From positions 1 to 49,562 of the forward strand of contig WFXF01000032.1 of assembly GCA_015490755.1 (NCBI GenBank): a stretch of DNA of 49,562 nucleotides. The letters are read 5' to 3'. The DNA is from Gammaproteobacteria bacterium (GTDB taxonomy: Bacteria; Pseudomonadota; Gammaproteobacteria; JAADGQ01). Positions 1 to 15,423 of the stretch are shown here, in pieces. The first letter of the stretch is position 1. Each line of letters opens with the position of its first letter. The notes beneath the pieces are model-generated. The model saw nothing but the letters and a program-made list of their open reading frames with translations. It was not told the origin of the DNA and ran no database searches. Position numbers and translations under genes: made by a program.

Positions 1-1118
1 ACAACCCATAAAAGGCAACCACCTATAATGGCCCAGCCTAAATTGTGTGTTGATAAGAAACTGGTCCATTGAGTAAGTGCCAGAATGGTAAATGAGCCAA
101 AAACTTTAAATATTCGGTAGCCAAACATATCAATCCACGCTTTAGCTCGGTACATAGTATCAGGATCAACAGGGATATAGAGCAGCTCTTTAGAAGCTCT
201 ATTGATTGAGTAGGATAGACCGCGATCGCTAATTTTCATTGTGGCTGCGGGATAGAGCGTTGGATGTGACATAAAGCCAAAAGCAGATGTAGCCAATACA
301 ATCGGCTGGACGAGCAGACCAGAAAGCACACCAAAAGATCTCAAGATCCAGGGTGTGATAAGCAGATTGATAAAAATTGAAATAGCACTTAATACACTGA
401 AAAATAATGATAATACTGCAGTGCGCTTCTCCATGTCATCAAAAGTTTTTTCGATGATGGAGAGGAATTGATACTCAACAATTGGGGATACTAACTGAGC
501 GAGTAGCAGAGCAGACGCAATAAGCATAAGATAGCGATTATGTATCAATAAACGCCAGCTGTTATGATCTGGCTTTTCATTATTAGGTAAGGGTGTTTTT
601 TCACTATAGATTTTGAGGTGACTCATCAACAGGGTTAAACCATAGATCAGAGCAACAATAGCGGCAGCAACGAGCAAAAGGTCGGCTGTTTCTAGAGGGG
701 TGTAACTAATAATAAATGCAGCACTACCACCGCCAACCACTCCACCGATCAGTCCGCCAGTACCGACCCAACCATACCAGCGCTTTCCTTCGCGAGTGCT
801 GTAGATGCTGTTGGCAAGGCTCCAGAACTGTTCAACCAGGATTACACCGAAAATATCGACAAAAATATAAAGACCGATGGTTGTGATTTGAGAGTAGTGG
901 TCAACAAGTACTCGACCTGATAATAAAAGCAGTAAAAATGTTAAACAGCTCCCAAGAACAACATTAAGGCGGCTGTAACGGTTCAAAATATGATGGTATA
1001 CACCGATAGTCACCAATAATACGAGAGCTGAGCCAATCCATACATAAGGCAAACTGCTGGAGCCATGAGACTCCAGCAATAGAGAACGGCTCGCAGGTTT
1101 TAGTTGGTAGAGAGCCAT
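1..1118 (-). CDS. NTP/NDP exchange (TLC-type) transporter-like membrane protein, partial at window edge
   Basis: I translated the minus strand from an ATG at 1118 and found an unbroken frame to base 1, so the C-terminus lies outside the window. The product is strongly hydrophobic with repeated membrane spans (residues about 25-45, 55-70, 75-95, 125-145, 155-175 and more). Two segments resemble the ATP/ADP translocase family of Chlamydia, Rickettsia and plastids: an EQFWSLAN...GKRWYGWVG stretch near residues 90-115, and SKELLYIPVD...YRAKAWIDMFGYR near 310-335. These carriers exchange or import nucleotides across the inner membrane. It starts 154 nt from, and divergent to, an exported serine hydrolase. 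Substrate and direction cannot be read from sequence; some homologues are annotated simply as MFS proteins. Family moderately sure, function uncertain. Confidence 0.72.
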   Translation of the reverse strand, partial: MALYQLKPASRSLLLESHGSSSLPYVWIGSALVLLVTIGVYHHILNRYSRLNVVLGSCLTFLLLLLSGRVLVDHYSQITTIGLYIFVDIFGVILVEQFWSLANSIYSTREGKRWYGWVGTGGLIGGVVGGGSAAFIISYTPLETADLLLVAAAIVALIYGLTLLMSHLKIYSEKTPLPNNEKPDHNSWRLLIHNRYLMLIASALLLAQLVSPIVEYQFLSIIEKTFDDMEKRTAVLSLFFSVLSAISIFINLLITPWILRSFGVLSGLLVQPIVLATSAFGFMSHPTLYPAATMKISDRGLSYSINRASKELLYIPVDPDTMYRAKAWIDMFGYRIFKVFGSFTILALTQWTSFLSTHNLGWAIIGGCLLWV

Positions 1119-1272
1119 AATGATAAGGAAAAAATTAGTGAACAACACAGTGCTTCGAACAAACAGATTTGCAAACGGTTTTTCTATTTGTGAATTTGGT
1201 TCCAGCATGGTTGGCATTTTCCTTTTGCTATGTTCTTTCCTGTTTGCAGTTTTTTATAGGTGGGTAGTGAAT

Positions 1273-2166
1273 ATGTTTAGATATTTTACACTGATTGTCT
1301 CTCTTTTATTTTTTCTGGTTCAACCAGCCACCGCTGAAGAGAGTTATCCACACCTTATCGATAGCAGTGACAGCTTTCTTCAATCCCAGTTAGAAAGCGA
1401 GTTGCAACAACTCGGTTTAAGTGGTGCCGCAGCACGGGGCGAGCTCTCTTTAACATTGGTTGATATTACTGACCTATCTCACCCCAGAATGGCAGCCATC
1501 AATGGTGAAAGCATGATGTATGCGGCCAGCCTGCCAAAAATAGCGATTCTTCTAGGTGTATTCTCTTCCATTGAACGTGGTGAGATGGAGTTGAATGACG
1601 AAGTTCGTGAAAAATTAGTGAACATGATTCGTTTTTCTTCTAACAGTGCTGCGACTGAGATGTTAAATCGCGTTGGTAAAGAAAACTTGGCTGGCATTCT
1701 ACAGTCGCCCCGTTTTGCTCTATATGATGCTAAGCTTGGAGGTGGTTTGTGGGTCGGTAAAGACTATGGTAAAGCAGCAGCCTGGAAGCGTGATCCACTG
1801 CACAATCTATCTCATGGTGCGAATACGCTTCAGGTGGCACGTTTATATTATTTGCTGGAAACAGGGCAACTGTTTTCTCCTGAACTGAGTCAGGAAATGA
1901 AAACTATTTTAAGCAAACCCGGTATTAATCATAAATTTGTAAAGGGTTTGAATCAGAGCCGTCCGGGTTCAGATATTTATCGTAAGTCAGGAAGCTGGCG
2001 CTCATGGCATGCGGATAGTGCAATTATTGAACGCGACGGACGCCGCTATATCGCAGTTGCATTAGCGCACAGTGCCAGAGGTGGTGCCTGGTTGCAGAAA
2101 ATCATCGTTACTATGGATGACCTTGTTTTTCAAACGGCTCCGGTTCAGGTGGCGTTGCTTGATTAA
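1273..2166 (+). CDS. Exported class A beta-lactamase-like serine hydrolase
   Basis: A 297-residue protein starting at the ATG at 1273, where a clean signal peptide begins (positively charged start, hydrophobic core, cleavage near ATA-EE at residues 19-23). The open frame runs back to 1120, but that extension has no family character and would enter the divergent promoter region. Active-site motifs of the penicillin-recognising serine hydrolase fold are present: SxxK as SLPK at 86-89, SxN as SSN at 122-124, and KSG at 238-240. No obvious class A Glu166 motif was seen, so antibiotic hydrolysis is not implied; a role in peptidoglycan or another envelope ester/amide substrate is as likely. Its 3' end overlaps the oppositely oriented serine hydrolase by 105 nt. 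Confidence 0.82.
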   Translation: MFRYFTLIVSLLFFLVQPATAEESYPHLIDSSDSFLQSQLESELQQLGLSGAAARGELSLTLVDITDLSHPRMAAINGESMMYAASLPKIAILLGVFSSIERGEMELNDEVREKLVNMIRFSSNSAATEMLNRVGKENLAGILQSPRFALYDAKLGGGLWVGKDYGKAAAWKRDPLHNLSHGANTLQVARLYYLLETGQLFSPELSQEMKTILSKPGINHKFVKGLNQSRPGSDIYRKSGSWRSWHADSAIIERDGRRYIAVALAHSARGGAWLQKIIVTMDDLVFQTAPVQVALLD

Positions 2167-3414
2167 CGTGTGTAATTTGCCGGCAAGCACTCGATGTTTC
2201 CAGGCGGCATTTTCTTTTAGGAGGTTTGTGCTAAGAACGACCATATAAAAAAGATCATCACTTTTAGAGTCTGACGTTGATTCGATAATCGCTATTGAGT
2301 TCAATTGGTTGATCTTGTTCCCCTGATATTTTCCACATATAAAGCCAGGCTCAGGCTTACAGCTATAAAGTGAGCCTGATTTAAAGTATAAAGCACTATT
2401 TTTCAGGATAGGAGCTGAGGCATAACGAACCCGTTTGCGTGTGAGATAAAGTAATTTTTTGAGTTCGAGGCTTGAGAAGGAGTCAACTACTTTACCTTGC
2501 TCAAGGTATAACAAGAGTTTCATCATTTCACGCGCAGTCATTCGGCTGCCTCCAGTAGATGCTACACGCCGTTTTCCTTCCCGGGTAAAAAACTTTCCCT
2601 GTTTCAGTTTGTTTGGATCCAGTGCATTGGCACTAATACCATTTGATAGTGCTGAATCTAATAAAACCCCAAGTTTCTTTCTGGAAGTTGTTTTAAAAAA
2701 CAGCTTTTCCTGCTCACTGGAAACAGGGTATTTTTTTCCAAAATGGTTCAATAAAATAAGTTGTTTCATCACCATGGATGCCGCAGCGTTTGAACTGGCC
2801 GACAACATCCAGTCCAGATAGCTCCACAGATTTGCCTGATCACCCTGTTTTATTGGACGGTATGAACGCTTCTTCCTGGATGCATTCCAAAAAGGTACTT
2901 TGTGATGATCCGTTTTAATAAATTGATCGGCAGTAATTATGGAGTTACGTAAAATCTGTTCTCTTGCCTGAATGTCATCAGGGTAGATATCGCTAAGTTT
3001 CTGAAATAGTGCAATTGCAACAAATATTTTCCCTAAACTGGCGGGGTTAAAGTTTTTTTCTGCCTGGTGCGCTGCATAAATAGGGCGTTCGCTATCTGAT
3101 AAATCCAATACAGATACAGAGTAATATTTGGCATCTTTTCCCATAAGTTTTAAAAGTGCCAGGGATAGTTCATTATCGATCCCGGGAAGCTCTATCTCTG
3201 TATCAGTTAATAAATTTAATTGGACTTCTTTGGATTTCAAGAGTGCCCCCTGAGGGAGCTTTGTACCGTGAGCAAAGCCATTTTGAATTTGCCAGGCTGC
3301 TTCGAGCCGCTCAATACCTGTGCGGCCAGCATCATCAATCGGATAAGCTTGAGCGCTGCCTTGAAATATCACAGTCGATAATAGTATGGCATGGAGTGTA
3401 TATAATTTATTCAT
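2062..3414 (-). CDS. Exported serine hydrolase, beta-lactamase/PBP-like fold
   Basis: A 450-residue protein with an N-terminal signal peptide (cleavage near AQA-YP, residues 21-25). The three catalytic motifs of the fold are visible: SLGK at 126-129, SSN at 207-209 and KSG at 345-347. It is longer than typical class A beta-lactamases because of an N-terminal extension of about 90 residues, insertions around 150-195, and a basic C-terminal tail. The gene starts 2 nt after the stop codon of the large dikinase-like gene upstream, so the two are almost certainly co-transcribed. The last 105 nt overlap the 3' end of the convergent serine hydrolase gene. The substrate is unknown; placement with the dikinase suggests work on the same envelope polymer or metabolite. 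Confidence 0.78.
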   Translation of the reverse strand: MNKLYTLHAILLSTVIFQGSAQAYPIDDAGRTGIERLEAAWQIQNGFAHGTKLPQGALLKSKEVQLNLLTDTEIELPGIDNELSLALLKLMGKDAKYYSVSVLDLSDSERPIYAAHQAEKNFNPASLGKIFVAIALFQKLSDIYPDDIQAREQILRNSIITADQFIKTDHHKVPFWNASRKKRSYRPIKQGDQANLWSYLDWMLSASSNAAASMVMKQLILLNHFGKKYPVSSEQEKLFFKTTSRKKLGVLLDSALSNGISANALDPNKLKQGKFFTREGKRRVASTGGSRMTAREMMKLLLYLEQGKVVDSFSSLELKKLLYLTRKRVRYASAPILKNSALYFKSGSLYSCKPEPGFICGKYQGNKINQLNSIAIIESTSDSKSDDLFYMVVLSTNLLKENAAWKHRVLAGKLHTLIKQRHLNRSRLKNKVIHSNDDFLQPGTTSGTVR

Positions 3415-3416
3415 AT

Positions 3417-6332
3417 TTACTCTTTTGCAATGTCATCAAGAAAAATCATCCTGTTCTCATGCTCTTTTAGACCTCGATCCATTTGTGCTAAAAATTGGCT
3501 TTGCTGAGCTTTTTTGCTTTGTAAATAAGGCCTTATTTGAAATAGCACCAGCTTACCTTTTTGAAAACCAAACTCAACATCTGCTGGCGTTGAGTGTCCA
3601 GCTTCATTTTTCATAGGAAAGTGGTTGGGTAATTTAAGGGCGATATTCATGAGCTGAAAAATATCATTATTATTCAATATTTGTGCGTTACTTGAAACAG
3701 GCACTTTTTTTAAGCCGCTTTTACCGGCTAATACACGGCGAGTGGGTGAGGTGGCTTCCGCCAGCAACCAGAATTCACCATTGCGTATATTATATTTAAT
3801 CTCTTCCGCAGCTTGCCCTGCGACAGCTCCGCCAATACCTTCATTACTTACAATAGTGATCCAGTCAGGTTGATTGGTTTCAACATCGCTGGTGACCATG
3901 ACACCTGATTTTTCAACCGGGATACTTTTCATAAGCAGTAACGATACATAAACATGTTCGGGCTGAGCCATGCGTTGTTGACGCCAGGCGAATGCCCGAT
4001 CAGAAAAGGGTGATGCCCAGACACGGGTGATTGCATCAATTAAGTCATCAAAGCCAACAACACCAGGTACAGTCAAGTTAAGACCCGCACCGCTAAACCC
4101 GGGTAAATCTTCTACGTTTGTATCGCTTCGCACAAAAAGAGAGTAACTGCCCTCTTTGCCAAAAGTTTTATCAAGAGCGGCTCTTAATCGTGTTTTAAAT
4201 TTTTCACCAGGATTGGATTGATGAATCCACTGACGTAACTTCCTTAAAAAATTATCTCGGACAATTTGCTGTGAGTGCGGATCATCCCGTAACGTATCAA
4301 TCAGATGGTACTGCTCTGTCATCCATCTAAATACAGTTTTCCCTTCAGACTCCATGACTTGATTGAGTTGTGCACGAAAAGCACCAAATGGAATGACTAA
4401 ACCGTTCGGTGTATTGTCAGGAAAGTGGTGGCGTAATTCAGCAAGGTTGGCTGCTTTAGGCCCCACGATGCGTCCAGAATCACTCGCACGTAACTGGTCA
4501 AGGGTAAAAAAATTTAGTGTGGCGAGGTTCAGTTTATCCAGATCAGGATAAATCGGGGTTGTTTTTTGACTGTTTTCCTCCCCAAATATTTTGTCCCACT
4601 CTGGCCCGTCTTTAGCCAGCATGATACGCCCACCCGGGCTGACAGCGAGCACTGCCGCTTGATTGTTAAATGCATGCAGCTGATTTGCAGTTTGCGAATC
4701 GATTGCAATATTGGGGATACCAAGGTTACGTGCAAGAATTTGTATATGTGAAAGCGTATTACCTTCACCTGATGTTAAAATACCAGCGACAGGTGGTAAC
4801 TCTTCAGTTGTTTCCGGCAGCACATAGATGCCATCAGGGGTGAGTGATTTTACGGCGAAATTGGAGGTGCGTAATACTCCCCTGGTGAACCCCGGATTTA
4901 GCATACGCAGCCCGACTCCTTTTTCCTCTCCAAACAGACTATGGCTGATTGAGGCTTGCTGGTTAGCATCCACCAAAAGTGTATCGAGAATAGCAGAATA
5001 GGTGAGCAACAAACTTGAGCGCAGCTGTTCCGGAATAAAGTGCTGGGTTTTGGGTTCAATCTCTGTTAGTTTTTGAATCGCTTTAGAGAAGTGAAACTGA
5101 TACCAACGCTCTGTCCATGAGAGTGTACGAGAAAGGTATTGCAGTTCTGTCCTGTAGTTAGAGAGCGGTAATTTTTTGCGGTTCAGCCAGTTTGTTGTGC
5201 TTTTAATTGCTGCCCATTGTCTGAGCGAAAGTGGACCACTGCCATAAAGTGCTTTGCCGACCTCCTTGAGCCATAGAATTTTGACGCGACGACTTTTGTA
5301 TGGAAGCTGTGCCCGTAAACGGGCACCTGCAGTAAAAGCTTCTTGCTCCAGTACCAAGCTAGCATCTAATGCGGCTAGTTTTTGCCTTTTATTTTTAAAA
5401 GCTGAAAAATTTTGACGAATGGCCATGAGTAGATCGGCGGTGGTGCTGAGTCTGGTTTCCGGGTCAAAATGAGTTGAAAGCAGCTCATTACCTTCTATAA
5501 AGAGTGTTTTCAGTGGGCCTTGTGGTAGCTGCTTAATGAGTGATTTTAATATTTCATCAAAGTTGCCAGATTGATATAACTGTTCAATTGTATGTGCCAG
5601 ACGTTCAAAGCCCAGCTTCAGTGAATCAAGCCCTTTTGATTCAGCATACTCTCGAACACGCTCTGCATCTAAAGCATCGGGAGAGGAGTGAATCTTGTTT
5701 CGCAAGTATTCAAATGCAGGGTCAAGTTCACCGAGTGCACTGGCGAGTTCACGTACTTCTGTGACGGCGGACGACCCCGTTCCATGATCAAGCAGACTGA
5801 CTGCTTCACGCAGTAGTAGAAAATTACGGTCATTACCACGGCTGATGTCAGTAAGCTTGAGTAATAGTTCACGGGAGTGCCAAGCCTCATCTTCGACCTG
5901 GAGAGCTCCCCTGTAAAATTGAGCTTTACGAAAGATCCAGCCATTGTCATGAGCAATCAAAAACTTCTCTAACAATATATGTTTGAGTGTTTCATGACTT
6001 TCATCGTTATAAACAAGCGCTTCGATGTCAGCTGAAGCCAGAACATTTCCTATCATATAACCCGATTGGCGGAGCTTTTTTGTACGTTGACTCCATTCCC
6101 CATGTTGAACACCGCCACCATACTCTTTGCAGGCAAAAGGTTCAGGTGGCAATATCTGGCCCTCTTTACAGAACCAGCGAATTCGTGAAAAAGGCCCTTT
6201 ATGGGCGTTTTTCATCTGCTCAATCCACTTTGAATAAGTTTCTGTGCTGGCTTGTGTTGGCGCTGCGCCGGGGATTATCCAAAATAGCAAAATAACCAGC
6301 AATATAGTTTTTAAATGGGATGATAAATCCAT
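3417..6332 (-). CDS. Exported PEP/pyruvate-binding (dikinase-like) protein: phosphohistidine domain then ATP-binding domain
   Basis: A 971-residue protein. Residues 1-29 look like a signal peptide (Lys8, then a hydrophobic run, then PTQA-ST). Residues 30-500 are a helical region I do not recognise. Residues about 510-575 resemble the phosphohistidine swivelling domain of PEP-utilising enzymes, with the motif LSHIQILARNLGIPN and His529 as the likely phospho-acceptor. Residues about 620-940 resemble the PPDK/PEP-synthase ATP-binding domain, with VRSDTNVEDLPGFSGAG at 734-750 and VEFGFQKGKLVLFQIRP at 919-935. PEP synthase and PPDK have the opposite order; this one is that of glucan/phosphoglucan water dikinases. 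No PEP-binding TIM barrel is present. An ATP-using enzyme with an export signal is odd. First gene of an operon with the serine hydrolase at 2062-3414. Substrate unknown. Confidence 0.75.
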   Translation of the reverse strand: MDLSSHLKTILLVILLFWIIPGAAPTQASTETYSKWIEQMKNAHKGPFSRIRWFCKEGQILPPEPFACKEYGGGVQHGEWSQRTKKLRQSGYMIGNVLASADIEALVYNDESHETLKHILLEKFLIAHDNGWIFRKAQFYRGALQVEDEAWHSRELLLKLTDISRGNDRNFLLLREAVSLLDHGTGSSAVTEVRELASALGELDPAFEYLRNKIHSSPDALDAERVREYAESKGLDSLKLGFERLAHTIEQLYQSGNFDEILKSLIKQLPQGPLKTLFIEGNELLSTHFDPETRLSTTADLLMAIRQNFSAFKNKRQKLAALDASLVLEQEAFTAGARLRAQLPYKSRRVKILWLKEVGKALYGSGPLSLRQWAAIKSTTNWLNRKKLPLSNYRTELQYLSRTLSWTERWYQFHFSKAIQKLTEIEPKTQHFIPEQLRSSLLLTYSAILDTLLVDANQQASISHSLFGEEKGVGLRMLNPGFTRGVLRTSNFAVKSLTPDGIYVLPETTEELPPVAGILTSGEGNTLSHIQILARNLGIPNIAIDSQTANQLHAFNNQAAVLAVSPGGRIMLAKDGPEWDKIFGEENSQKTTPIYPDLDKLNLATLNFFTLDQLRASDSGRIVGPKAANLAELRHHFPDNTPNGLVIPFGAFRAQLNQVMESEGKTVFRWMTEQYHLIDTLRDDPHSQQIVRDNFLRKLRQWIHQSNPGEKFKTRLRAALDKTFGKEGSYSLFVRSDTNVEDLPGFSGAGLNLTVPGVVGFDDLIDAITRVWASPFSDRAFAWRQQRMAQPEHVYVSLLLMKSIPVEKSGVMVTSDVETNQPDWITIVSNEGIGGAVAGQAAEEIKYNIRNGEFWLLAEATSPTRRVLAGKSGLKKVPVSSNAQILNNNDIFQLMNIALKLPNHFPMKNEAGHSTPADVEFGFQKGKLVLFQIRPYLQSKKAQQSQFLAQMDRGLKEHENRMIFLDDIAKE

Positions 6333-6509: not shown

Positions 6510-6566
6510 AGCTATCAATAAGTTATTTATAAATAATCTAAAGCAATCGTGCACAGGGAAAATGGC

Positions 6567-7943
6567 ATGTATTATAACTTTTTTGGTCTGGAACAAGCGC
6601 CCTATAAAGTAACACCTGATATCCGTATGTTTTACCGTGGCGGACAGCGTGGAGCGATTTTGGATGCACTGTTGTATGCGATCAATAGTGGTGAGGCAAT
6701 TACAAAAGTCGTCGGTGAAGTCGGCAGTGGAAAAACCATGCTGTGTTGTATGCTGGCCTCGCAGCTGCAGGAAGAGGTTGATGTTGTTTATTTGGCGAAC
6801 CCTAATATAAAACCCGATGATGTATTGAAAGCAATTTCCATGGAACTGGGGTTGCTTATTGGAGCCGATGCGGATCGGCTGCAAGTCATGAAAAATCTAC
6901 ATGAATTTTTATTGGAGAAACATGCACAAAAGCGCCGTGTCGTCGTGCTGGTTGAAGAAGCCCATCAAATGCCGTTGGAGACACTGGAAGAGATACGCTT
7001 GCTCAGTAATCTGGAAACACAGCACAATAAACTGTTACAGATTGTGCTGTTTGGCCAACCCGAGCTGGATAAAAGCCTGAATCTCCCTCATGTAAGGCAA
7101 ATAAAGGATCGTATTTCAAATAGTTTCTACCTGCCAGCGCTGGAGCGCCATGAGATCTGTGATTATTTAATTTTCAGATTGCATCGGGCGGGGTACTGTG
7201 AATGCAATCCTTTCAGTCGTAGTGCAATCAATTTATTGGCATGGGCTTCAAAGGGTCTGTTTCGACGAATTAATGTGCTTGCTGACAAAACGTTGCTGGC
7301 GGCTTTCTCCGATCATAGCAAAACAGTTAATAAATCACATGTACGAGCCGCAGTAGCGGATGTTGAATTTAAACCAAAGCGCTTTTTTATGCGTCCTGAA
7401 TTTTCGGTGCTCACGATTGCATTGATGGTTGTCTGGTTTGCGTTATCTGGTGTGAGCCAGACAGCTGCAAATGCCTGGGTTGATAAACCGAAGAGTGAGA
7501 TTGCAGTTCAAGTGGCTTCACTAAATGACTCTAAACTGGAAGATTCGTCTATACAGGTTGCAAAAAACAGAGCAATAAAGAAAAAACAGGAAACAGTGGG
7601 GTATTTTCAACAGCGCTTGAATATGACAAAACATTGGCTTGATCAAGCAAGTCCCGATCACTTTACGATTCAGATATTAGTCACAAAAAGTGATGATCAA
7701 AAGGGGGTTGAACAATTTTTTAAATATCAACTTAACCAGGAGCCTCCAGGTAAATTAACCGATCAATTATACCTTTATCGGGAAAATATAGGAGGTGAAA
7801 TGATGTTAAGTGTGGCTTACGGAGAGTTTTCAAGCTTGGGTGAAGCACGGGCAGCTCTGAATAATTTACCCGATGAATTGCAAAGCAATAAACCCTATCT
7901 GCGTAATATCAGTCAGGTTCTGGGTGCTGTGCAAGGTGCTTGA
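6567..7943 (+). CDS. mshM: MshM/ExeA-like AAA ATPase with C-terminal SPOR-type domain
   Basis: A 458-residue protein. I start it at the ATG at 6567, preceded by AGGGAA at a good distance; the upstream GTG at 6549 adds six residues foreign to the family, whose proteins begin MYY.FFGL. Walker A GEVGSGKT spans 50-57, Walker B (VVVLVEEAH) lies near 125-133, and the ATPase domain ends near 265. A single membrane span follows at about 280-296. The periplasmic part ends in a region (about 370-450) with the spacing of a SPOR peptidoglycan-binding domain. ExeA/GspA/MshM proteins help insert the secretin through the cell wall, which fits the secretin gene just downstream. First gene of the locus. Confidence 0.82.
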   Translation: MYYNFFGLEQAPYKVTPDIRMFYRGGQRGAILDALLYAINSGEAITKVVGEVGSGKTMLCCMLASQLQEEVDVVYLANPNIKPDDVLKAISMELGLLIGADADRLQVMKNLHEFLLEKHAQKRRVVVLVEEAHQMPLETLEEIRLLSNLETQHNKLLQIVLFGQPELDKSLNLPHVRQIKDRISNSFYLPALERHEICDYLIFRLHRAGYCECNPFSRSAINLLAWASKGLFRRINVLADKTLLAAFSDHSKTVNKSHVRAAVADVEFKPKRFFMRPEFSVLTIALMVVWFALSGVSQTAANAWVDKPKSEIAVQVASLNDSKLEDSSIQVAKNRAIKKKQETVGYFQQRLNMTKHWLDQASPDHFTIQILVTKSDDQKGVEQFFKYQLNQEPPGKLTDQLYLYRENIGGEMMLSVAYGEFSSLGEARAALNNLPDELQSNKPYLRNISQVLGAVQGA

Positions 7944-7959
7944 TAGAAACAAGACAAAA

Positions 7960-9573
7960 ATGAGAATTTTCACGATTTTAGGAGTTGCTCTTGCTATTGG
8001 TAGTTGCTCAGCAACTAAACCACCTTCAAATTCGGTAGGGCATTTACAAGCGCCACCAGCCATTGTACACGGCATTCCTGACCCTGTGATCAGACCACCG
8101 GCATTAATGCCCCCCAAGCCTGTTTCACGCCTGGAAACCTACACAGTCGTAGTCAACGAGGTTTCTGTAAAGGAGTTACTGTTCCAATTGGCTCGAGATG
8201 CAAAAATTAATGTAGATATTGACCCCGGTATTGAAGGCATTGTTACATTAAATGCATTTAATCAGACATTACCTCAAATACTGGACCGTATCAGCCGTCA
8301 GGCAGAATTACGTTATCGGCTTGATGGAAATAACCTGGTGATTGGCCCTGATCTACCTTATTGGAAAACTTATTCACTGAACTATCTGAACATGTCTCGT
8401 TCAAGTGTGGGTGAGATTGGTGTCGCCACACAAATTTCCACGGCGGGTGGAAGCGTTGCAACCGGAGCTTCTTCCCAGTTTGGTAATATTTCGATAACCA
8501 AAGTTACAAACAAATCCAATAATGATTTTTGGAGGCTTATTGAAGCCAATATTCAAGCTTTTACAGGAGAGCGTAAAACTGAAGAAGGTGGCCCAGATAA
8601 TAGTGGACAAACAGTCGCTAATGTATTGATTAACCCTATGACCGGAATGATTTCTGCGCAGGCAACACAGAAGCAACATGATAAAATTCAACACTTTTTA
8701 GATCAAACAATTGCTCATGTTTTGCGCCAGGTATTGATCGAGATGACAATCGTTGAAATAGAGTTGAGTGATCGCTATCAAGCAGGGGTTGATTGGCAAA
8801 GTCTTGCAAACGGCGAAGGAATCAACGTTCTGAACTCTTTGTTAGGCTCTAATTTGAAATTACCTCCTGTGTTCTCAATGAGCTATAACAAAACATCATC
8901 CTCAGGTCGTGGTATTACCGCGACGATCAAGATGCTGGAGGAGTTTGGTAATGTAAAAGTCCTGTCAAGCCCTAAAATTATGGCTCTTAATAATCAAACG
9001 GCTTTACTTAAGGTTGTTGATGAAAAAGTATATTTCACTGTTGAGCGTGAAGTGACAGAAGCAATCAGCGGTGCCAGCAACAGAATAGAGACATTTACCA
9101 GTAAAATTCATACCGTACCTGTGGGTTTGGTGATGAGTGTGACTCCACAAATTAATGTGGATGATAATGTGATGCTCAATATTCGTCCAACAATCTCTCG
9201 TATTACCGGCTTTGCGGTAGATCCTGCCCCTCAATTGGCAAATGCAGGGTTTGATAATTTAATTCCAGAGCTTCAGGTTCGTGAAATGGAGACATTACTG
9301 CAAGTTGCAAATGAACAAATGGTCGTCATGGGTGGCTTGATGCAGAATAAAATTAATAAAAAGAGTACAGGAGTACCATTACTTTCCAGGCTCCCTTGGG
9401 TCGGATCAGTTTTTAACTATAAAAACGATGAGCTAATAAAAACAGAGCTGGTTATTTTTTTAAGGCCCAAAGTTATAAAGGGGGCTGGAGTCGGTTTTGA
9501 TATTTCACCCTACAAGAGCTATATAGACTCTGTGGAAAAGCAAGAGATTGATCATGAAAAAGGTGAATCATGA
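7960..9573 (+). CDS. mshL: MSHA/type IV pilus secretin, MshL-like lipoprotein
   Basis: A 537-residue outer-membrane secretin. The ATG at 7960 gives a lipoprotein signal ending in an IGSC lipobox (Cys14); longer frames from 7873 would overlap the previous gene and lose this. An STN/secretin N-domain lies at about 60-130, followed by a Ser/Gly/Thr-rich stretch (about 160-190) and the C-terminal secretin domain, which ends in the characteristic TELVIFLRPKVIKG. A short-repeat/N1-type domain lies between. It forms the gated pore through which the pilus exits. It ends in a 4-nt overlap (ATGA) with the next gene. Confidence 0.9.
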   Translation: MRIFTILGVALAIGSCSATKPPSNSVGHLQAPPAIVHGIPDPVIRPPALMPPKPVSRLETYTVVVNEVSVKELLFQLARDAKINVDIDPGIEGIVTLNAFNQTLPQILDRISRQAELRYRLDGNNLVIGPDLPYWKTYSLNYLNMSRSSVGEIGVATQISTAGGSVATGASSQFGNISITKVTNKSNNDFWRLIEANIQAFTGERKTEEGGPDNSGQTVANVLINPMTGMISAQATQKQHDKIQHFLDQTIAHVLRQVLIEMTIVEIELSDRYQAGVDWQSLANGEGINVLNSLLGSNLKLPPVFSMSYNKTSSSGRGITATIKMLEEFGNVKVLSSPKIMALNNQTALLKVVDEKVYFTVEREVTEAISGASNRIETFTSKIHTVPVGLVMSVTPQINVDDNVMLNIRPTISRITGFAVDPAPQLANAGFDNLIPELQVREMETLLQVANEQMVVMGGLMQNKINKKSTGVPLLSRLPWVGSVFNYKNDELIKTELVIFLRPKVIKGAGVGFDISPYKSYIDSVEKQEIDHEKGES

Positions 9574-10955
9574 GCTTGTTAATGGATGCATTGAGCAAAG
9601 CGGAAAAGGAGCGCCATAAAGTTGAAAATCGACTTGATAAGAAGCCTGAAGATGAAATACTTATCGAGCCGGATGAGCTGCTTTTTGAAAGCAGGCAGCC
9701 TGTAGAAGAAAAAAAGCCAATTGATGAAAAACCATTAGATCTCTCTTTTTTGTCGCTATCCGGTGATGGCAAAAAGGATGAACCTGAGCCTTCAGAGACG
9801 AAAATAGAGGTTGATGCAGAGAGTTCAGCTTTAAAGCTTGCTACAGAGTTACCCACAGACCTTCCATTAAATGATCTGATTGAGCAGAAGCCCGAATTAT
9901 CGCCAGAGCCTTCCGTGGTTTTTGAACCACCAGCACCCAAAATTGAAAGCAAGAAAAATTACGATATACCCGTATTAGGTATTGCAAAAAAAGCATCAAA
10001 TCTGACCCATTGGATTATTGGAGGAGGTGTTTTATTGATCGCTTTAATAGCGGTTGTCTACTATTTTAAAAGTACAGAAGCTAATAATAGCTCTATCACA
10101 AGAAATACCGTATTTGACCATAATTCACTTCAAGGTCAGCGAAATTATGAAGCTGAAGAGGTGGAATTAACTAAAGAGAGAGTGGTTGAGGTACTAGAAA
10201 AGCCTAAAACAAATTTAGTGGCAGAGATTAAGTCCGATAACCAAGCAGTTAAAAAGCAACAAACTGTTGAAAGGGTAATACCCAAACTGAAAACCGGAGA
10301 AATCTCGGCTTCAATTGTACCTTCCCGGAAAGAAGATACTATCCATGTTCAACGAGAAGAGCCAAAAATTGATTATTTGCAGCAGGCATTAGAGCAAGCG
10401 TATGAGGCGTACCAGACAGGGTATATGGTTCATGCAGAACAGCAGTATCAAATAGCATTGCAATACGAACCAGATAACCAGGATGCATTATTAGGGATGG
10501 CAGTTATTTCTCAAAGTTTAAATAATGAACAGCAGGCAAAAACTTACTATCAGAAACTACTGAACCTTAATCCCAAAAACAGCATTGCAATGAGTGGCTT
10601 GATTTCGATGCAACAAGGCCTGGTTCGGTCAGCCAGTGAAAGCCGCTTGAAATTACTATTGAGTGAGGAGCCAGATGCCGCTTATCTACATGCTGCTTTA
10701 GGCGCTCAATATGTGGCAGAGTCACGTTGGTCAGAAGCACAGCAGGCTTTTTTAAAAGCTCATCACTATGACTCAAATAACCCTGACTACACTTATAATC
10801 TGGCGATCACTCTGGATCATTTGGGACAAATTCAGGCTGCAATAAAATATTATAAGCAAGCACTATTTTTATCAAAGCAATTTTCAGCAGGTTTTAAAAG
10901 TTCAGTGATTGAATCAAGGTTGCTGAGTTTGTCTGATTCGGTGAAAGTACAGTGA
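9570..10955 (+). CDS. mshN: MshN-like TPR protein of the pilus assembly system
   Basis: A 461-residue bitopic inner-membrane protein. The N-terminus MSLLMDALSKAEKER is typical of MshN-type proteins. A long acidic, Pro/Glu-rich cytoplasmic stretch follows (20-130), then one membrane span (about 147-167), then a periplasmic part. That part holds several tetratricopeptide repeats from about 270 to 445 (for example AYQTGYMVHAEQQYQIALQY and repeats with ..A...Y..AL). TPR proteins of this kind act as assembly or secretin-localising factors. It overlaps the preceding secretin gene by ATGA and the following mshE by GTGA, showing tight translational coupling. Exact MshN equivalence is by position and architecture rather than strong motifs. 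Confidence 0.75.
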   Translation: MSLLMDALSKAEKERHKVENRLDKKPEDEILIEPDELLFESRQPVEEKKPIDEKPLDLSFLSLSGDGKKDEPEPSETKIEVDAESSALKLATELPTDLPLNDLIEQKPELSPEPSVVFEPPAPKIESKKNYDIPVLGIAKKASNLTHWIIGGGVLLIALIAVVYYFKSTEANNSSITRNTVFDHNSLQGQRNYEAEEVELTKERVVEVLEKPKTNLVAEIKSDNQAVKKQQTVERVIPKLKTGEISASIVPSRKEDTIHVQREEPKIDYLQQALEQAYEAYQTGYMVHAEQQYQIALQYEPDNQDALLGMAVISQSLNNEQQAKTYYQKLLNLNPKNSIAMSGLISMQQGLVRSASESRLKLLLSEEPDAAYLHAALGAQYVAESRWSEAQQAFLKAHHYDSNNPDYTYNLAITLDHLGQIQAAIKYYKQALFLSKQFSAGFKSSVIESRLLSLSDSVKVQ

Positions 10956-12691
10956 GTGAAACTAAAAAAAGACCCGCCCGCTTAGGTGAGATGTTAGTTG
11001 ATAAAGGCTTGATTACGGAGGATCAGCTGGGTATTGCTCTGGTTGAGCAAAAGCGGCGTGGCATACCTCTTGGTAAAGTTTTGGTCACAATCGGCTTTGT
11101 AAGTGATGCCGTCATGCGGGATGTTCTGGCTGAGCTTTTAGGGCAAAAGAGTGTTGATCTTACGAAAGTGGTTCCTGAAGGTGAAGCGCTCAAGCTTGTT
11201 CCAAAAGATATTGCGAGACGTTACCAGTTGATTCCTGTGACCTGGGACAGTGAAAAGCATGTGCTGACTGTTGCGATGGCGGATACTTACAATGTAGTCG
11301 CCCTGGATCAAACGGCTGCATTATTGGGTGGTGATCTGGATATTCACCCATTGTTAGCGACTGAAGTTGAAATAGAAGCTGCCATTGACAATTTTTACGG
11401 TTATGAACTTTCAGTAGAGGGGATTCTTAATGAGCTAGATACGGGTAAAGTTGATTATCAAAGCCTGCAACTGGGTACAGATGAGTACAGTCAACCCCTG
11501 GTGCGTCTGGTTGATGCTCTATTGGCAAACTCAGTCAAACGGGGTGCTTCAGACATACATTTTGAGCCTGAAAATGGTTTTTTACGTATTCGTGATCGCA
11601 TTGATGGTGTATTACGCTCAGTTCTGGTATTGCATAAAGGGTATTGGTCAGGCATTGTGGTTCGTCTAAAGGTCATGGCAGGTATGAATATCGCTGAAAC
11701 ACGCGCTCCACAAGATGGAAGAATTTCATTAACATTAGGTGGGCGGCATGTCGATTTTCGCGTAGCGACTCAACCCGTGACCTTTGGTGAAAATATCGTA
11801 TTGCGTGTACTGGATAGTAAAAAAGGCATTGTGCCATTAGAAAAGCTCAATCTGACAGAGCATTCACTCTCATTGATCAAACTGATGATGGCGCGCCCTG
11901 AAGGAGTGATCCTTGTAACAGGACCTACCGGAAGCGGAAAAACTACGACACTCTATTCCATGCTGAATCATCTGAATGATGAATCGGTCAATATCATGAC
12001 GCTTGAAGATCCGGTTGAATATACCATTCCACTGATTCGGCAAAGTTCAGTCAACAAGTCGGTTAAAATGGACTTTGCTGAGGGTATTCGCTCCATGATG
12101 AGGCAGGATCCGGATATTATTTTGGTGGGTGAAATTCGTGATAGTGCTACATCAGAAATGGCATTTCGAGCCGCAATGACGGGGCATCAGGTTTTTAGTA
12201 CGTTGCATACTAACTCAGCACTGGGTGTTGTGCCCCGTTTGCTCGATATTGGTGTGAAACCGGATATTATGGCGGGAAATATTATCGGTATTATAGCGCA
12301 GCGTTTGGTACGCACACTTTGTAATCAGTGCAAAAAGGCTTATTTTCCAACCGAGATTGAAAAAAAACTCTTAAGTCTTGAAAACAGTGATGACAATGAA
12401 CTCCAGATCTATCAATCCGTAGGCTGTAAACAGTGTGACAATATTGGTTATAAAGGTCGCACCTCATTGATGGAAGTATTAAAAATGGATAGTGAACTGG
12501 ATGAACTGATTGTCAATCACGCATCAATGCGCCAATTAAAAGAGATGGCACTTGATAAAGGGTTTATTCCATTAGCAGATGATGGAATACGTGCAGTACT
12601 GCATGGAGTGACAAGCCTGGATGAAGTATCCCGTGTGATTGATTTAACCGAGAAAGTTGTAGAGATCAAGCCCGGTTATGGTTATCTATAA
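10952..12691 (+). CDS. mshE: MshE, pilus extension ATPase with c-di-GMP-type N-domain
   Basis: A 579-residue GspE/PilB-family hexameric ATPase that powers pilin polymerisation. It uses a GTG start overlapping the previous stop (GTGA). The N-terminal 70 residues carry the MshEN pattern (RLGEML at 10-15, L26, L30, Q33) followed by a second copy (LGKVL at 40-44, G48, L59), the module known to bind cyclic di-GMP in MshE. In the second copy the terminal Gln is Leu62. Walker A GPTGSGKT is at 324-331 and Walker B with GEIRD near 388-398. A zinc tetracysteine site (CNQC... and CKQC...) lies toward the C-terminus. It overlaps mshG by 14 nt. Confidence 0.95.
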   Translation: MSETKKRPARLGEMLVDKGLITEDQLGIALVEQKRRGIPLGKVLVTIGFVSDAVMRDVLAELLGQKSVDLTKVVPEGEALKLVPKDIARRYQLIPVTWDSEKHVLTVAMADTYNVVALDQTAALLGGDLDIHPLLATEVEIEAAIDNFYGYELSVEGILNELDTGKVDYQSLQLGTDEYSQPLVRLVDALLANSVKRGASDIHFEPENGFLRIRDRIDGVLRSVLVLHKGYWSGIVVRLKVMAGMNIAETRAPQDGRISLTLGGRHVDFRVATQPVTFGENIVLRVLDSKKGIVPLEKLNLTEHSLSLIKLMMARPEGVILVTGPTGSGKTTTLYSMLNHLNDESVNIMTLEDPVEYTIPLIRQSSVNKSVKMDFAEGIRSMMRQDPDIILVGEIRDSATSEMAFRAAMTGHQVFSTLHTNSALGVVPRLLDIGVKPDIMAGNIIGIIAQRLVRTLCNQCKKAYFPTEIEKKLLSLENSDDNELQIYQSVGCKQCDNIGYKGRTSLMEVLKMDSELDELIVNHASMRQLKEMALDKGFIPLADDGIRAVLHGVTSLDEVSRVIDLTEKVVEIKPGYGYL

Positions 12692-13880
12692 ATACAGGGC
12701 CGTCAATGCCAGTGGCAAGGTCATTCAAGGCCGGATGGACTCGGTGAATGAGGCTGATTTGGAAGCTCGTTTGTCAGGAATGCAGTTAGAGCTCATTTCA
12801 TGTTCGCGGGCAGTTGCTAAAAAAAGATGGGTGTTGAGTCGAAAGGTAACGATTCGGGATCTCATTGTTTTTTGTTTTCATATGGAGCAATTAACGGGGG
12901 CGGGTGTGCCCGTTCTGGAAGGGTTGGATGATTTGCGCAGCAGTATAGATAATGAACGGTTTCGCGAAATATTATCTGCCATTATTGCGTCCATCGAAGG
13001 TGGCCTGACACTTTCTGAAGCTTTAACCGAATTTCCTTCAGTATTTGATGAAGTGTTTATTAGCCTGATTCGTGCGGGTGAGACCAGTGGTGATTTAAGC
13101 GTCGTTTTAAAAGATATGACAGAGTCACTGAAATGGCAGGATGAGTTAACCGAGCAGACTAAAAAACTGATGATGTACCCGTTATTTGTAGGTGGAACTG
13201 TAGTTTGTGTGATTCTTTTTTTAATGATCTATCTTGTACCTCAACTCGTGGGTTTTGTCAGCAATATGGGTGAAGAGTTACCTATGCATACAAAAGCATT
13301 GATAACTGTTTCTGATTTTACTATTGAGTTTTGGTATCTGCTTTTTTTATTACCGGTATTGTTTTTTTTGATTCGGTATTTATCTAAGAGATCTGAAAAA
13401 TTTCGCTATGGAGTGGATCATATTAAATTAAATCTATGGTTGATCGGGCCAGTGCTGAGAAAAGTGATACTGAGCCGGTTCACTCGTTACTTTGCTCTGT
13501 TGTATTCCTCTGGTGTCAGTGTGCTGGCCAGCATCAGAATTTGTGAAGGCATTGTAGGCAACAAGGTGATTGCTCAAGCGTTATCCAATATAGAAAAAAA
13601 TATTTCAAATGGAAAAAGTTTGAGTGAAAGTATTGAAATAGCCGGTCTGTTTCCGCCTCTTGTATTACGTATGGTTAAAGTGGGGGAAAGTACGGGGGAA
13701 ATAGATAAAGCGTTGGTGAATGTCGGTTATTTTTATGATCGCGACGTAAAAGGTTCTATTGAAAGATTACAAGCCATGATTGGCCCCCTTATTACGGTTA
13801 TTTTAGCACTGGTTTTGGGGTGGGTCATGATCTCGGTATTAGGGCCTATTTATGACATTATCGGTAACCTGAGTATTTAG
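12678..13880 (+). CDS. mshG: MshG, inner-membrane platform protein (GspF/PilC family)
   Basis: A 400-residue polytopic protein. It begins with the family's IYKYRAVNASGKVIQG opening and has two homologous T2SSF domains (about 60-185 and 265-385). Membrane spans occur near 165-190, 210-230 and 370-390. Family motifs include GVPVLEGL in the first repeat, and SGVSVLASI plus VGESTGEIDKAL in the second. It couples ATPase rotation to pilin insertion. The start lies inside the end of mshE (14-nt overlap) and the gene ends one base before the next ATG. Confidence 0.93.
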   Translation: MVIYKYRAVNASGKVIQGRMDSVNEADLEARLSGMQLELISCSRAVAKKRWVLSRKVTIRDLIVFCFHMEQLTGAGVPVLEGLDDLRSSIDNERFREILSAIIASIEGGLTLSEALTEFPSVFDEVFISLIRAGETSGDLSVVLKDMTESLKWQDELTEQTKKLMMYPLFVGGTVVCVILFLMIYLVPQLVGFVSNMGEELPMHTKALITVSDFTIEFWYLLFLLPVLFFLIRYLSKRSEKFRYGVDHIKLNLWLIGPVLRKVILSRFTRYFALLYSSGVSVLASIRICEGIVGNKVIAQALSNIEKNISNGKSLSESIEIAGLFPPLVLRMVKVGESTGEIDKALVNVGYFYDRDVKGSIERLQAMIGPLITVILALVLGWVMISVLGPIYDIIGNLSI

Positions 13881-13881
13881 G

Positions 13882-15423
13882 ATGGCTCGGCGTATCTTTT
13901 ACATTGCCTGTAACGAACTGGTTGTTTATTTATGCAAGAAGGGTGTCGTTGAAGAGGGTAAGCGGTTTTTAAATACGGATAATGGGTTGGAACTATTTGA
14001 ACAATATCTATTAAAAGAGGCAGATATTGTCAGTTATGTTTTATTGGATGTCATCGAAGAGGAGTATCGCTATGAAACGATTCCTCATATTTCGAGACGA
14101 GATCGCCAATCGATGTTACAACGAAAAATAGGGCAGGCATTCAGGGGAACACGTTGGCGTGACGGTCTGTTTCAAGGGCGGGAGAAAGGGGGAAGACGTG
14201 ATGATAAGGTGATGCTTTCAGCCATTACAAACCCTGAAGTTCTTAATCATTGGATCAGAGTGATTAAAAAGAACCGTATTCCACTGGAAGGGGTCTATTC
14301 CGTTGCGATGATGGGGCAGATTTTATTAAAGCGGCTTAAGCTTAAATCCAGAAATGCTTTGTTGCTGACTCAACAACGTGGCTCACTGCTTAGGCAAACG
14401 TTTCTTAATGGGTATTTTCTCAAACTCAGTCGATTAACCAACTTACCTATATTCAATATTGACGAGTACAGTAATTTATTATCCAAGGAGATAGATAAGC
14501 AGCTACGTTATTTAAATCGTATCGGTGTATTACCTTATGGGCAAAGTATCGATATTTATGTAGTCACCCAGGAAGGCATGATGGATCAGTTTACAGCTGG
14601 CCATATGGAATCAAGCCTGGTCAATTATCACTTACTTGATATGGGGAGCATTTCTCTAAGCATCGGTATGAAAAAAGATCTGGTTGCCGGCATGTGTGAG
14701 CCTCTATATGTTCATCTTTTGACACTTGAACGTCCGGTAATGAATTACGCATCATTTTATGATCGCCGTTATTTTTTTATGAAAAGAGCCAAGTCATGGC
14801 TTATTTATACGGGCGCTTTTTTAGCCTCAGTGAGTTTGTTGTGGAGTGTTAATAATATTTTAAATGCAAATACAATTTATAAAAATACGTTATTGAGCCA
14901 AACGAAAACGGTTCAAATTATAGAGCGCTATCACAAACAGGTAGAGACTATGCCAGAGCTGCCTTTGCGTCCTTCTGATATGCGTCTTGCTGTAGAGATC
15001 AATACTCAACTGGGAAAGCATAACAATCGTCCCAAACGCGGGTTGCTCGTTGTGAGTGAAAGTTTATCTGTTTATAACGATATTCAGATTGATGATATTG
15101 TTTGGCAAGCCAAAATAAGAGAGACGAATAATCAAAATAGCGATGAATATAACGAGACAATACCCAAAGTTTTTCAGGGCATGATTTTAAAAGGCCATTT
15201 ATCACCTTTTAATGGCCGGTATAAAAAAGCATTTCGGAGAATTAATAGCTTTATCAGATCACTACAGAGCAATCCTGATGTTGTTTCTGTTGAAATATTG
15301 GCTATGCCTCTGAATGTTGATTCGGCCTCATCCATGAAAGGAGAAGAGAGGTATAAAGGTAAAATTGTAGATCCCGGATTTGAATTACTAATCTTTCTGG
15401 AGGATGAATCATATGAAGATTGA
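13882..15423 (+). CDS. PilM/PilN (GspL)-like pilus assembly protein, MshI position
   Basis: A 513-residue protein. Residues 1-300 form a cytoplasmic domain without clear motifs that could be an actin-like PilM/GspL fold. A single membrane span lies at about 305-325 (WLIYTGAFLASVSLLW). The periplasmic remainder starts with a coiled-coil-prone stretch and ends in a ferredoxin-like PilN pattern (RINSFIRSLQSNPDVVSVEI ... FELLIFL). It sits directly after mshG and before PilO- and PilP-like genes, so it completes a PilMNOP-like subcomplex in which M and N appear fused, as in GspL. Assigned mainly from architecture and context; equivalence to Vibrio MshI is plausible but not proven. Confidence 0.62.
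   Translation: MARRIFYIACNELVVYLCKKGVVEEGKRFLNTDNGLELFEQYLLKEADIVSYVLLDVIEEEYRYETIPHISRRDRQSMLQRKIGQAFRGTRWRDGLFQGREKGGRRDDKVMLSAITNPEVLNHWIRVIKKNRIPLEGVYSVAMMGQILLKRLKLKSRNALLLTQQRGSLLRQTFLNGYFLKLSRLTNLPIFNIDEYSNLLSKEIDKQLRYLNRIGVLPYGQSIDIYVVTQEGMMDQFTAGHMESSLVNYHLLDMGSISLSIGMKKDLVAGMCEPLYVHLLTLERPVMNYASFYDRRYFFMKRAKSWLIYTGAFLASVSLLWSVNNILNANTIYKNTLLSQTKTVQIIERYHKQVETMPELPLRPSDMRLAVEINTQLGKHNNRPKRGLLVVSESLSVYNDIQIDDIVWQAKIRETNNQNSDEYNETIPKVFQGMILKGHLSPFNGRYKKAFRRINSFIRSLQSNPDVVSVEILAMPLNVDSASSMKGEERYKGKIVDPGFELLIFLEDESYED

Follow-up and report, generated by a model that had tools for sequence, protein, structure and literature searches.

Results

Four genes at the start of the contig

The window analysed in this study is the whole of contig WFXF01000032.1 (contig C32; 49,562 nucleotides, positions 1 to 49,562 of the forward strand), which belongs to the 2.6-Mb draft genome of a gammaproteobacterium (GCA_015490755.1; lineage JAADGQ01). 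Its first 6,332 positions hold a module of exactly four genes, which encode a dikinase-like protein with a predicted export signal (DIK), two predicted exported serine hydrolases (SH1 and SH2), and a carrier of the TLC/NTT type. These frames had been proposed in a first-pass annotation made from the sequence, and the open reading frames and Pfam matches showed that all four are real.

DIK is a protein of 971 amino acids encoded at 3417-6332 on the minus strand and consists of a signal peptide, a new N-terminal domain, a phosphohistidine-type domain, and a C-terminal ATP-grasp domain (PPDK_N). SH2 (450 amino acids; 2062..3414, minus strand) lies downstream, with 2 nt between the stop codon of DIK and the start codon of SH2, as had been claimed. 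SH1 is encoded on the plus strand at 1273..2166 (297 amino acids from the ATG at 1273). Its open frame spans 1120-2166, and position 1273 (MFRYF...ATA) is likely to be the true start since a start at 1120 overlaps the carrier gene and the homologues begin at a later position. The carrier gene (3..1217, minus strand; 405 amino acids visible) runs past the start of the contig, and the sequence encoding its C-terminus was found on a different contig of the same draft (G000:C10:3-188) with unrelated genes beyond it. Past the end of the carrier gene, that contig encodes an AAA ATPase-like protein (412 amino acids) and a PIN-domain-like toxin (129 amino acids) (L148:302-2012).

Domains, catalytic residues, and export of DIK

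The signal peptide of DIK occupies residues 1-28 (MDLSSHLKTILLVILLFWIIPGAAPTQA, followed by S at a putative cleavage site placed from the sequence; 6249..6332, minus strand). A signal-peptide-like N-terminus with a hydrophobic core was found in 78 of 80 DIKs, whereas none of 23 control cytosolic PEP synthases had one, and many of the cores end in AxA; these calls were made by a hydropathy rule with a single start-selection rule, not by a trained predictor. The first-pass annotation had named homologues lacking signal peptides as the outcome that would speak against its reading, and this is not what was found.

The N-terminal domain (approximately residues 29-460; 4953..6248, minus strand) is mostly helical, consisting of two short strands and a helical bundle, and bears the signature GPFxRIRWFCxDGxxLPPxxYACxxHGGGxQHGEW. 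It had no Pfam match even at E = 5. It is followed by a swivelling phosphohistidine domain of the PEP-utilizers type (approximately residues 480-580; 4593..4895, minus strand), whose Pfam match (PF00391, residues 506-542) scored 23.8 bits, barely above the cut-off of 23.1. His529, which the first-pass annotation had named and which lies in this domain (codon 4746-4748), was correctly positioned and is present without exception in the alignment of 62 DIKs. The ATP-binding PPDK_N domain (approximately residues 610-947; 3492..4505, minus strand) matched PF01326 over residues 622-947 with 125.7 bits (E 3e-36), and its K626, R735, D918, E920, Q932, and R934 are likewise invariant in the alignment. 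The AlphaFold2 model of DIK had a pLDDT of 89.3 and a pTM of 0.85. Its best Foldseek matches in practice cover the ATP domain and are rifampin phosphotransferase (RPH; 5hv1, E 9e-14) and PEP synthase (2ols); among these best matches, no PDB fold corresponded to the N-terminal domain.

DIK resembles PEP synthase and PPDK in having the PPDK_N domain with the invariant K, R, D, E, Q, and R residues and the SH motif of the phosphohistidine domain. Unlike these enzymes, it is predicted to be exported, its His domain precedes the ATP domain, and it has an additional new N-terminal domain of approximately 430 residues. It also has no Pfam match to the pyruvate-binding C-terminal domain (PEP-utilizers_C), the chain ending approximately 25 residues past PPDK_N, and it scored below the equivalog cut-offs of NF005057 and TIGR01418. 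An ordinary PEP synthase was thus rejected on the basis of domain content and export signals. Polymer-acting dikinases in which an acceptor region, a His domain, and an ATP domain follow one another are known, and DIK shares this order with plant GWD/PWD. In contrast to GWD, which works inside plastids, DIK is bacterial and predicted to be exported, and no Pfam match to carbohydrate-binding or starch-binding modules or to the GWD family was obtained.

All 62 aligned DIKs have C55 and C68 in the N-terminal domain, and all 48 aligned SH2 sequences have C352 and C360; these pairs fit disulphides in an oxidising compartment. Together with the exported partners, the invariant cysteines further support an extracytoplasmic location of DIK. 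Thus, the signal peptides and gene neighbourhood on which the first-pass annotation had based its reading of an ATP-using module in the envelope hold, and the extracytoplasmic placement of DIK holds as far as sequence allows.

Conservation of the module across phyla

An alignment-based scan for DIK over 84,980 species yielded at least 542 genome stretches with DIK relatives, of which the best 80 were read. These 80 come from Gamma-, Beta-, and Zetaproteobacteria (Pseudomonadota), Desulfobacterota (Thermodesulfobacteriota), Myxococcota, and Nitrospirota, at least four phyla, and include the isolates Mariprofundus ferrooxydans PV-1, M. micogutta, Guyparkeria hydrothermalis, Aestuariicella albida, and Agaribacterium haliotis. 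At the 44 loci with adequate flanks (at least 3.5 kb upstream and at least 5 kb downstream of DIK), SH2 was found beside DIK in 41, SH1 in 37, the TLC carrier in 36, and all three in 34. When all neighbouring frames were clustered, four large families were obtained (79, 69, 48, and 48 loci), after which the number fell to 9; this fifth family is a generic ABC ATPase, and nothing else is conserved beside the module. Three genomes (G047, G003, and G027) illustrate this, with DIK, SH2, SH1, and TLC together and unrelated genes around them. The neighbourhood is thus kept across phyla with unrelated flanks and is not confined to close relatives, the other outcome that the first-pass annotation had named against its reading. 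The co-occurrence search it had called for found the four families together, both at the flanked loci and in the profile of 369 genomes described below.

In a search of relatives of the window genome, true DIK homologues turned up only outside its own family, in other families of the class; none was found in the sampled genome of the same genus (G001) or in that of the same family (G002). The DIK tree is deep, with no more than 47% identity between the window protein and any of the other 61 proteins, and the phyla group into a small number of clusters. Over shared loci, the pairwise distances of the four families correlate (rho 0.32-0.49), as would be expected of an old unit; shared species history contributes to these values.

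Some loci differ in gene content. One gammaproteobacterial clade has a gene for a TPR lipoprotein-like protein of 904-907 amino acids, similar to PrsT of the PEP-CTERM system, between DIK and SH2 (L153:6345-9059 and L078:13963-16686), and the latter locus additionally encodes a PEP-CTERM-like protein at 13133-13894. The Mariprofundus loci (L115, L139, and L146) have two tandem SH1-like genes after SH2, and no TLC was detected at L115 and L131. In the window, an MSHA-like pilus biogenesis cluster (6549-15423) lies upstream of DIK and is divergent from it; it encodes an ATPase (464 amino acids), a secretin-like protein (566), a TPR protein (461), an MshE-like ATPase (579), an MshG-like protein (400), and a further protein of 513 amino acids. 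Since none of these genes recurs next to other DIK copies, they were treated as unrelated, and a functional link with the module was rejected. A plasmid search and the PADLOC families gave no match for the module, and a mobile or defence cassette was rejected on these grounds.

Phyletic profile of the four families

All four family alignments were searched against 369 genomes of the same class. DIK was present in 35 genomes and SH2 in exactly those 35, while SH1 (33 genomes) and strong TLC matches of at least 180 bits (28 genomes) were found only within the DIK genomes; weaker TLC relatives were common outside them. DIK and SH2 were on the same contig in 31 of the 35 genomes, always on the same strand and mostly with a gap of less than 200 bp, and the other four genomes are fragmented assemblies of approximately 420-540 contigs. 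SH1 and TLC lay together in 27 of 27 cases, always on opposite strands. Fisher's test gave p = 8e-50 for DIK with SH2, a value that is inflated because the genomes are related, not independent, and that serves as a guide only; the DIK and SH2 sets are nonetheless identical, and their association is not due to chance. On these observations, the four genes almost certainly constitute an exported, conserved unit.

The carrier belongs to the TLC/NTT family

The window carrier matched the Pfam TLC family (PF03219) with 57 bits against a cut-off of 21, and the profile of the module carriers retrieved solved ADP,ATP carriers first (9j3n, E 3e-15, and 9j3j). The module carriers resemble AtNTT1 and the chlamydial and rickettsial NTTs; unlike these, they form a separate, shorter subfamily (approximately 430 amino acids), do not reach the cut-off of TIGR00769, and within the 369-genome sample are confined to DIK genomes. 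In AtNTT1, K527 is involved in ATP binding, E245 in translocation, and K155 in ADP binding (PMC3306366), and all four charged residues K155, E245, E385, and K527 matter (PMC10654386). These positions were mapped along the 9j3j alignment, in which chain residues 161, 301, and 443 correspond to E245, E385, and K527 (constant offset of 84). The position of K527 is occupied by K371 in 27 of 27 module sequences, that of E385 by E248 (24 E and 3 D), and that of E245 by D121 in all 27. Because three of the four charged residues of NTT1 are kept (E245 as D), the substrate of the module carrier is likely to be a nucleotide or a similar phosphate-bearing compound.

Longer TLC/NTT-like proteins (frames of approximately 730-1500 amino acids) adjoin the module at L076, L100, L106, L110, L116, L117, and L154. 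Some of them have HEAT repeats or a cNMP-binding domain, and they are often the second carrier at the locus. This HEAT/cNMP-type architecture was reported to be widespread and of unknown function in a survey of NTTs that does not mention a dikinase (Major et al. 2017; PMC5381601). The same survey found NTT carriers to be widespread in free-living bacteria and suggested that their roles are broader than those known (PMC5381601).

Hydrolases with class A beta-lactamase motifs and a PBP-A-like predicted fold of SH2

SH1 and SH2 matched the Pfam family Beta-lactamase2 with 62 and 37.7 bits, respectively. The intact SxxK, SxN, and KSG motifs that had been reported for both (SLPK, SSN, and KSG in SH1, with S86 as the active-site Ser counted from the ATG at 1273; S126-K129, S207-N209, and K345-G347 in SH2) were borne out and are conserved in alignments of 42 SH1 and 48 SH2 sequences. 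Profile searches of solved structures with SH1 and SH2 gave no sequence match. The AlphaFold2 model of SH2 (pLDDT 92.4) was closest to PBP-A of Thermosynechococcus, with class A beta-lactamases also among the nearest solved folds; SH2 shares with PBP-A this fold and the three motifs, and differs from it in being larger, only 11-13% identical, equipped with the extra invariant cysteine pair, and linked to a dikinase and a carrier. The fold was modelled for SH2 only. Unlike class A beta-lactamases, neither SH1 nor SH2 has a conserved equivalent of Glu166 of the omega loop: no Glu conserved in at least 90% of sequences was found near this place (34-36 residues after SxN) in either alignment. PBP-A is a DD-carboxypeptidase/endopeptidase (PMC11189452).

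Two SH1 homologues (L149:2521-3957 and L150:1767-3158) have an N-terminal LysM_OapA domain (28.5 and 26.4 bits, respectively; Pfam cut-off 22.3). LysM_OapA is a peptidoglycan-binding type of module and provides the best clue that the unit may act on the cell wall. This fusion and the PBP-A-like fold predicted for SH2 both point to peptidoglycan. An SH1 in G027 (L037:13678-15054) has an N-terminal extension of approximately 150 residues, whose identification as MshEN was not supported by Pfam.

Discussion

The results described above raise the question of what an exported dikinase-like protein would do beside a carrier and two wall-type hydrolases. We hypothesised that the four genes form one functional unit that performs an ATP-consuming phosphotransfer outside the cytoplasm, fed by the carrier and acting on the wall, and we consider the chances of this hypothesis to be even. 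In the proposed scheme, DIK would be exported by the Sec pathway, and its C-terminal ATP-grasp domain would split ATP to AMP and phosphate by dikinase chemistry. The middle domain would bear the phosphoryl group on His529 and pass it to an acceptor that the N-terminal domain may hold and present. A carrier of the NTT type in the inner membrane would exchange adenine nucleotides, bringing ATP into the periplasm and spent nucleotide back; that it delivers ATP to DIK is, in our view, slightly favoured. SH1 and SH2, acting as PBP-A-like serine DD-peptidases, would work on the same wall material by cutting or trimming its peptide part and so may process the product of the dikinase. This shared material would most likely be peptidoglycan or a polymer attached to it, although we propose a wall substrate only tentatively, at somewhat less than even confidence. 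The broader idea of an exported 'wall water dikinase', a widespread system in which exported ATP drives the phosphorylation or other activation of peptidoglycan or of a glycan bound to the wall, with a dedicated NTT-type exchanger supplying the ATP and PBP-A-like hydrolases as partners, is more speculative still, and we regard it as rather unlikely.

Several points weigh against the proposed unit. The periplasm is normally low in ATP, and the export of ATP is costly. The position corresponding to AtNTT1 K155 falls in the weak first-half alignment of the carrier. Seven of the 35 DIK genomes lack a strong score for the module-type TLC, some of them having more divergent or longer TLC proteins, and the LysM_OapA-SH1 fusion was confirmed in just two related genomes of one genus. 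In addition, G011 has DIK and SH2, but SH1 gave no match in this genome and TLC is represented only by a fragment on a different contig. Its DIK frame (L036:7832-10885) is broken by one TAG while SH2 is intact, and the same break was observed at L120; the module of G011 is probably decaying.

Another explanation is that DIK and the carrier handle ATP from outside the cell, either from lysed neighbours or otherwise extracellular. DIK would spend this ATP on a phosphorylated product, the carrier would import AMP, ADP, or the product, and the hydrolases would open the wall or digest the peptidoglycan of neighbours. The second, longer TLC proteins with HEAT or cNMP domains at several loci would suit such scavenging. 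However, no nucleotidase, nucleosidase, or porin was conserved among the clustered neighbouring frames, and the hosts are not only scavengers or predators, since they include Mariprofundus and Guyparkeria, which are chemolithoautotrophs. We consider nucleotide scavenging unlikely.

The similarity of the DIK ATP domain to RPH raises the possibility that DIK is a periplasmic counterpart of this cytoplasmic enzyme and phosphorylates an antibiotic or another amphipathic compound, and that SH1 and SH2 are beta-lactamase-like resistance enzymes. RPH, the closest solved fold to the ATP domain, phosphorylates an acceptor other than pyruvate while splitting ATP to AMP and Pi, and the class A beta-lactamase fold of SH2 and the Beta-lactamase2 matches of both hydrolases would agree with resistance. 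On the other hand, RPH is cytoplasmic and has its ATP domain first and a rifampin-binding domain in the middle, an order that DIK lacks, and DIK scored 76.7 bits against the NCBIfam RPH model, whose cut-off is 999. Neither hydrolase has the conserved Glu near the E166 place, no match was found on plasmids or in PADLOC families, and the strict linkage of four genes across deep divergence is unlike a resistance cassette. Inactivation of small molecules is thus quite improbable.

An equally improbable explanation is that DIK uses its phosphohistidine relay outside the cytoplasm to join two building blocks, in the way that the PPDK-related ligase PigC does inside it, with the hydrolases trimming the product. 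The distant relatives of the ATP domain include the ligases PigC and RedH, and serine hydrolases beside a ligase would suit assembly and trimming, but the module has no conserved partner genes that would provide small-molecule precursors, and the N-terminal domain of DIK has no known relative. Finally, the view that a divergent PEP synthase, unrelated hydrolases, and a generic MFS transporter are ordinary neighbours by chance, to which the broad family calls of every protein and the absence of the module from the same-genus and same-family genomes would lend themselves, is refuted by the conservation of exactly these four genes across phyla (34 of 44 loci) and the identical phyletic sets of DIK and SH2, and it also disagrees with the lack of a pyruvate-binding domain and with the export signals.

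To our knowledge, no system with this four-gene set has been described. The openly licensed literature was searched and yielded no paper on it; neither subscription papers nor preprints were covered, and an earlier description is possible. Each protein belongs to a broad known superfamily, but DIK lacks the features that define PEP synthase, RPH, and, domain order aside, GWD. The function offered here is a hypothesis.

ATP-splitting enzymes are expected inside the cell, and ATP is scarce outside it. The module presents an intact dikinase-like protein that has an export signal in nearly all homologues and is found together with a carrier whose family is known to transport ATP. If the carrier feeds DIK, the Gram-negative envelope would have a dedicated ATP supply, and the wall chemistry would be of a new kind. 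With the phyletic and neighbourhood data at hand, this question is directly testable in the cultured hosts, and a positive answer would provide a physiological role for NTT carriers in free-living bacteria.

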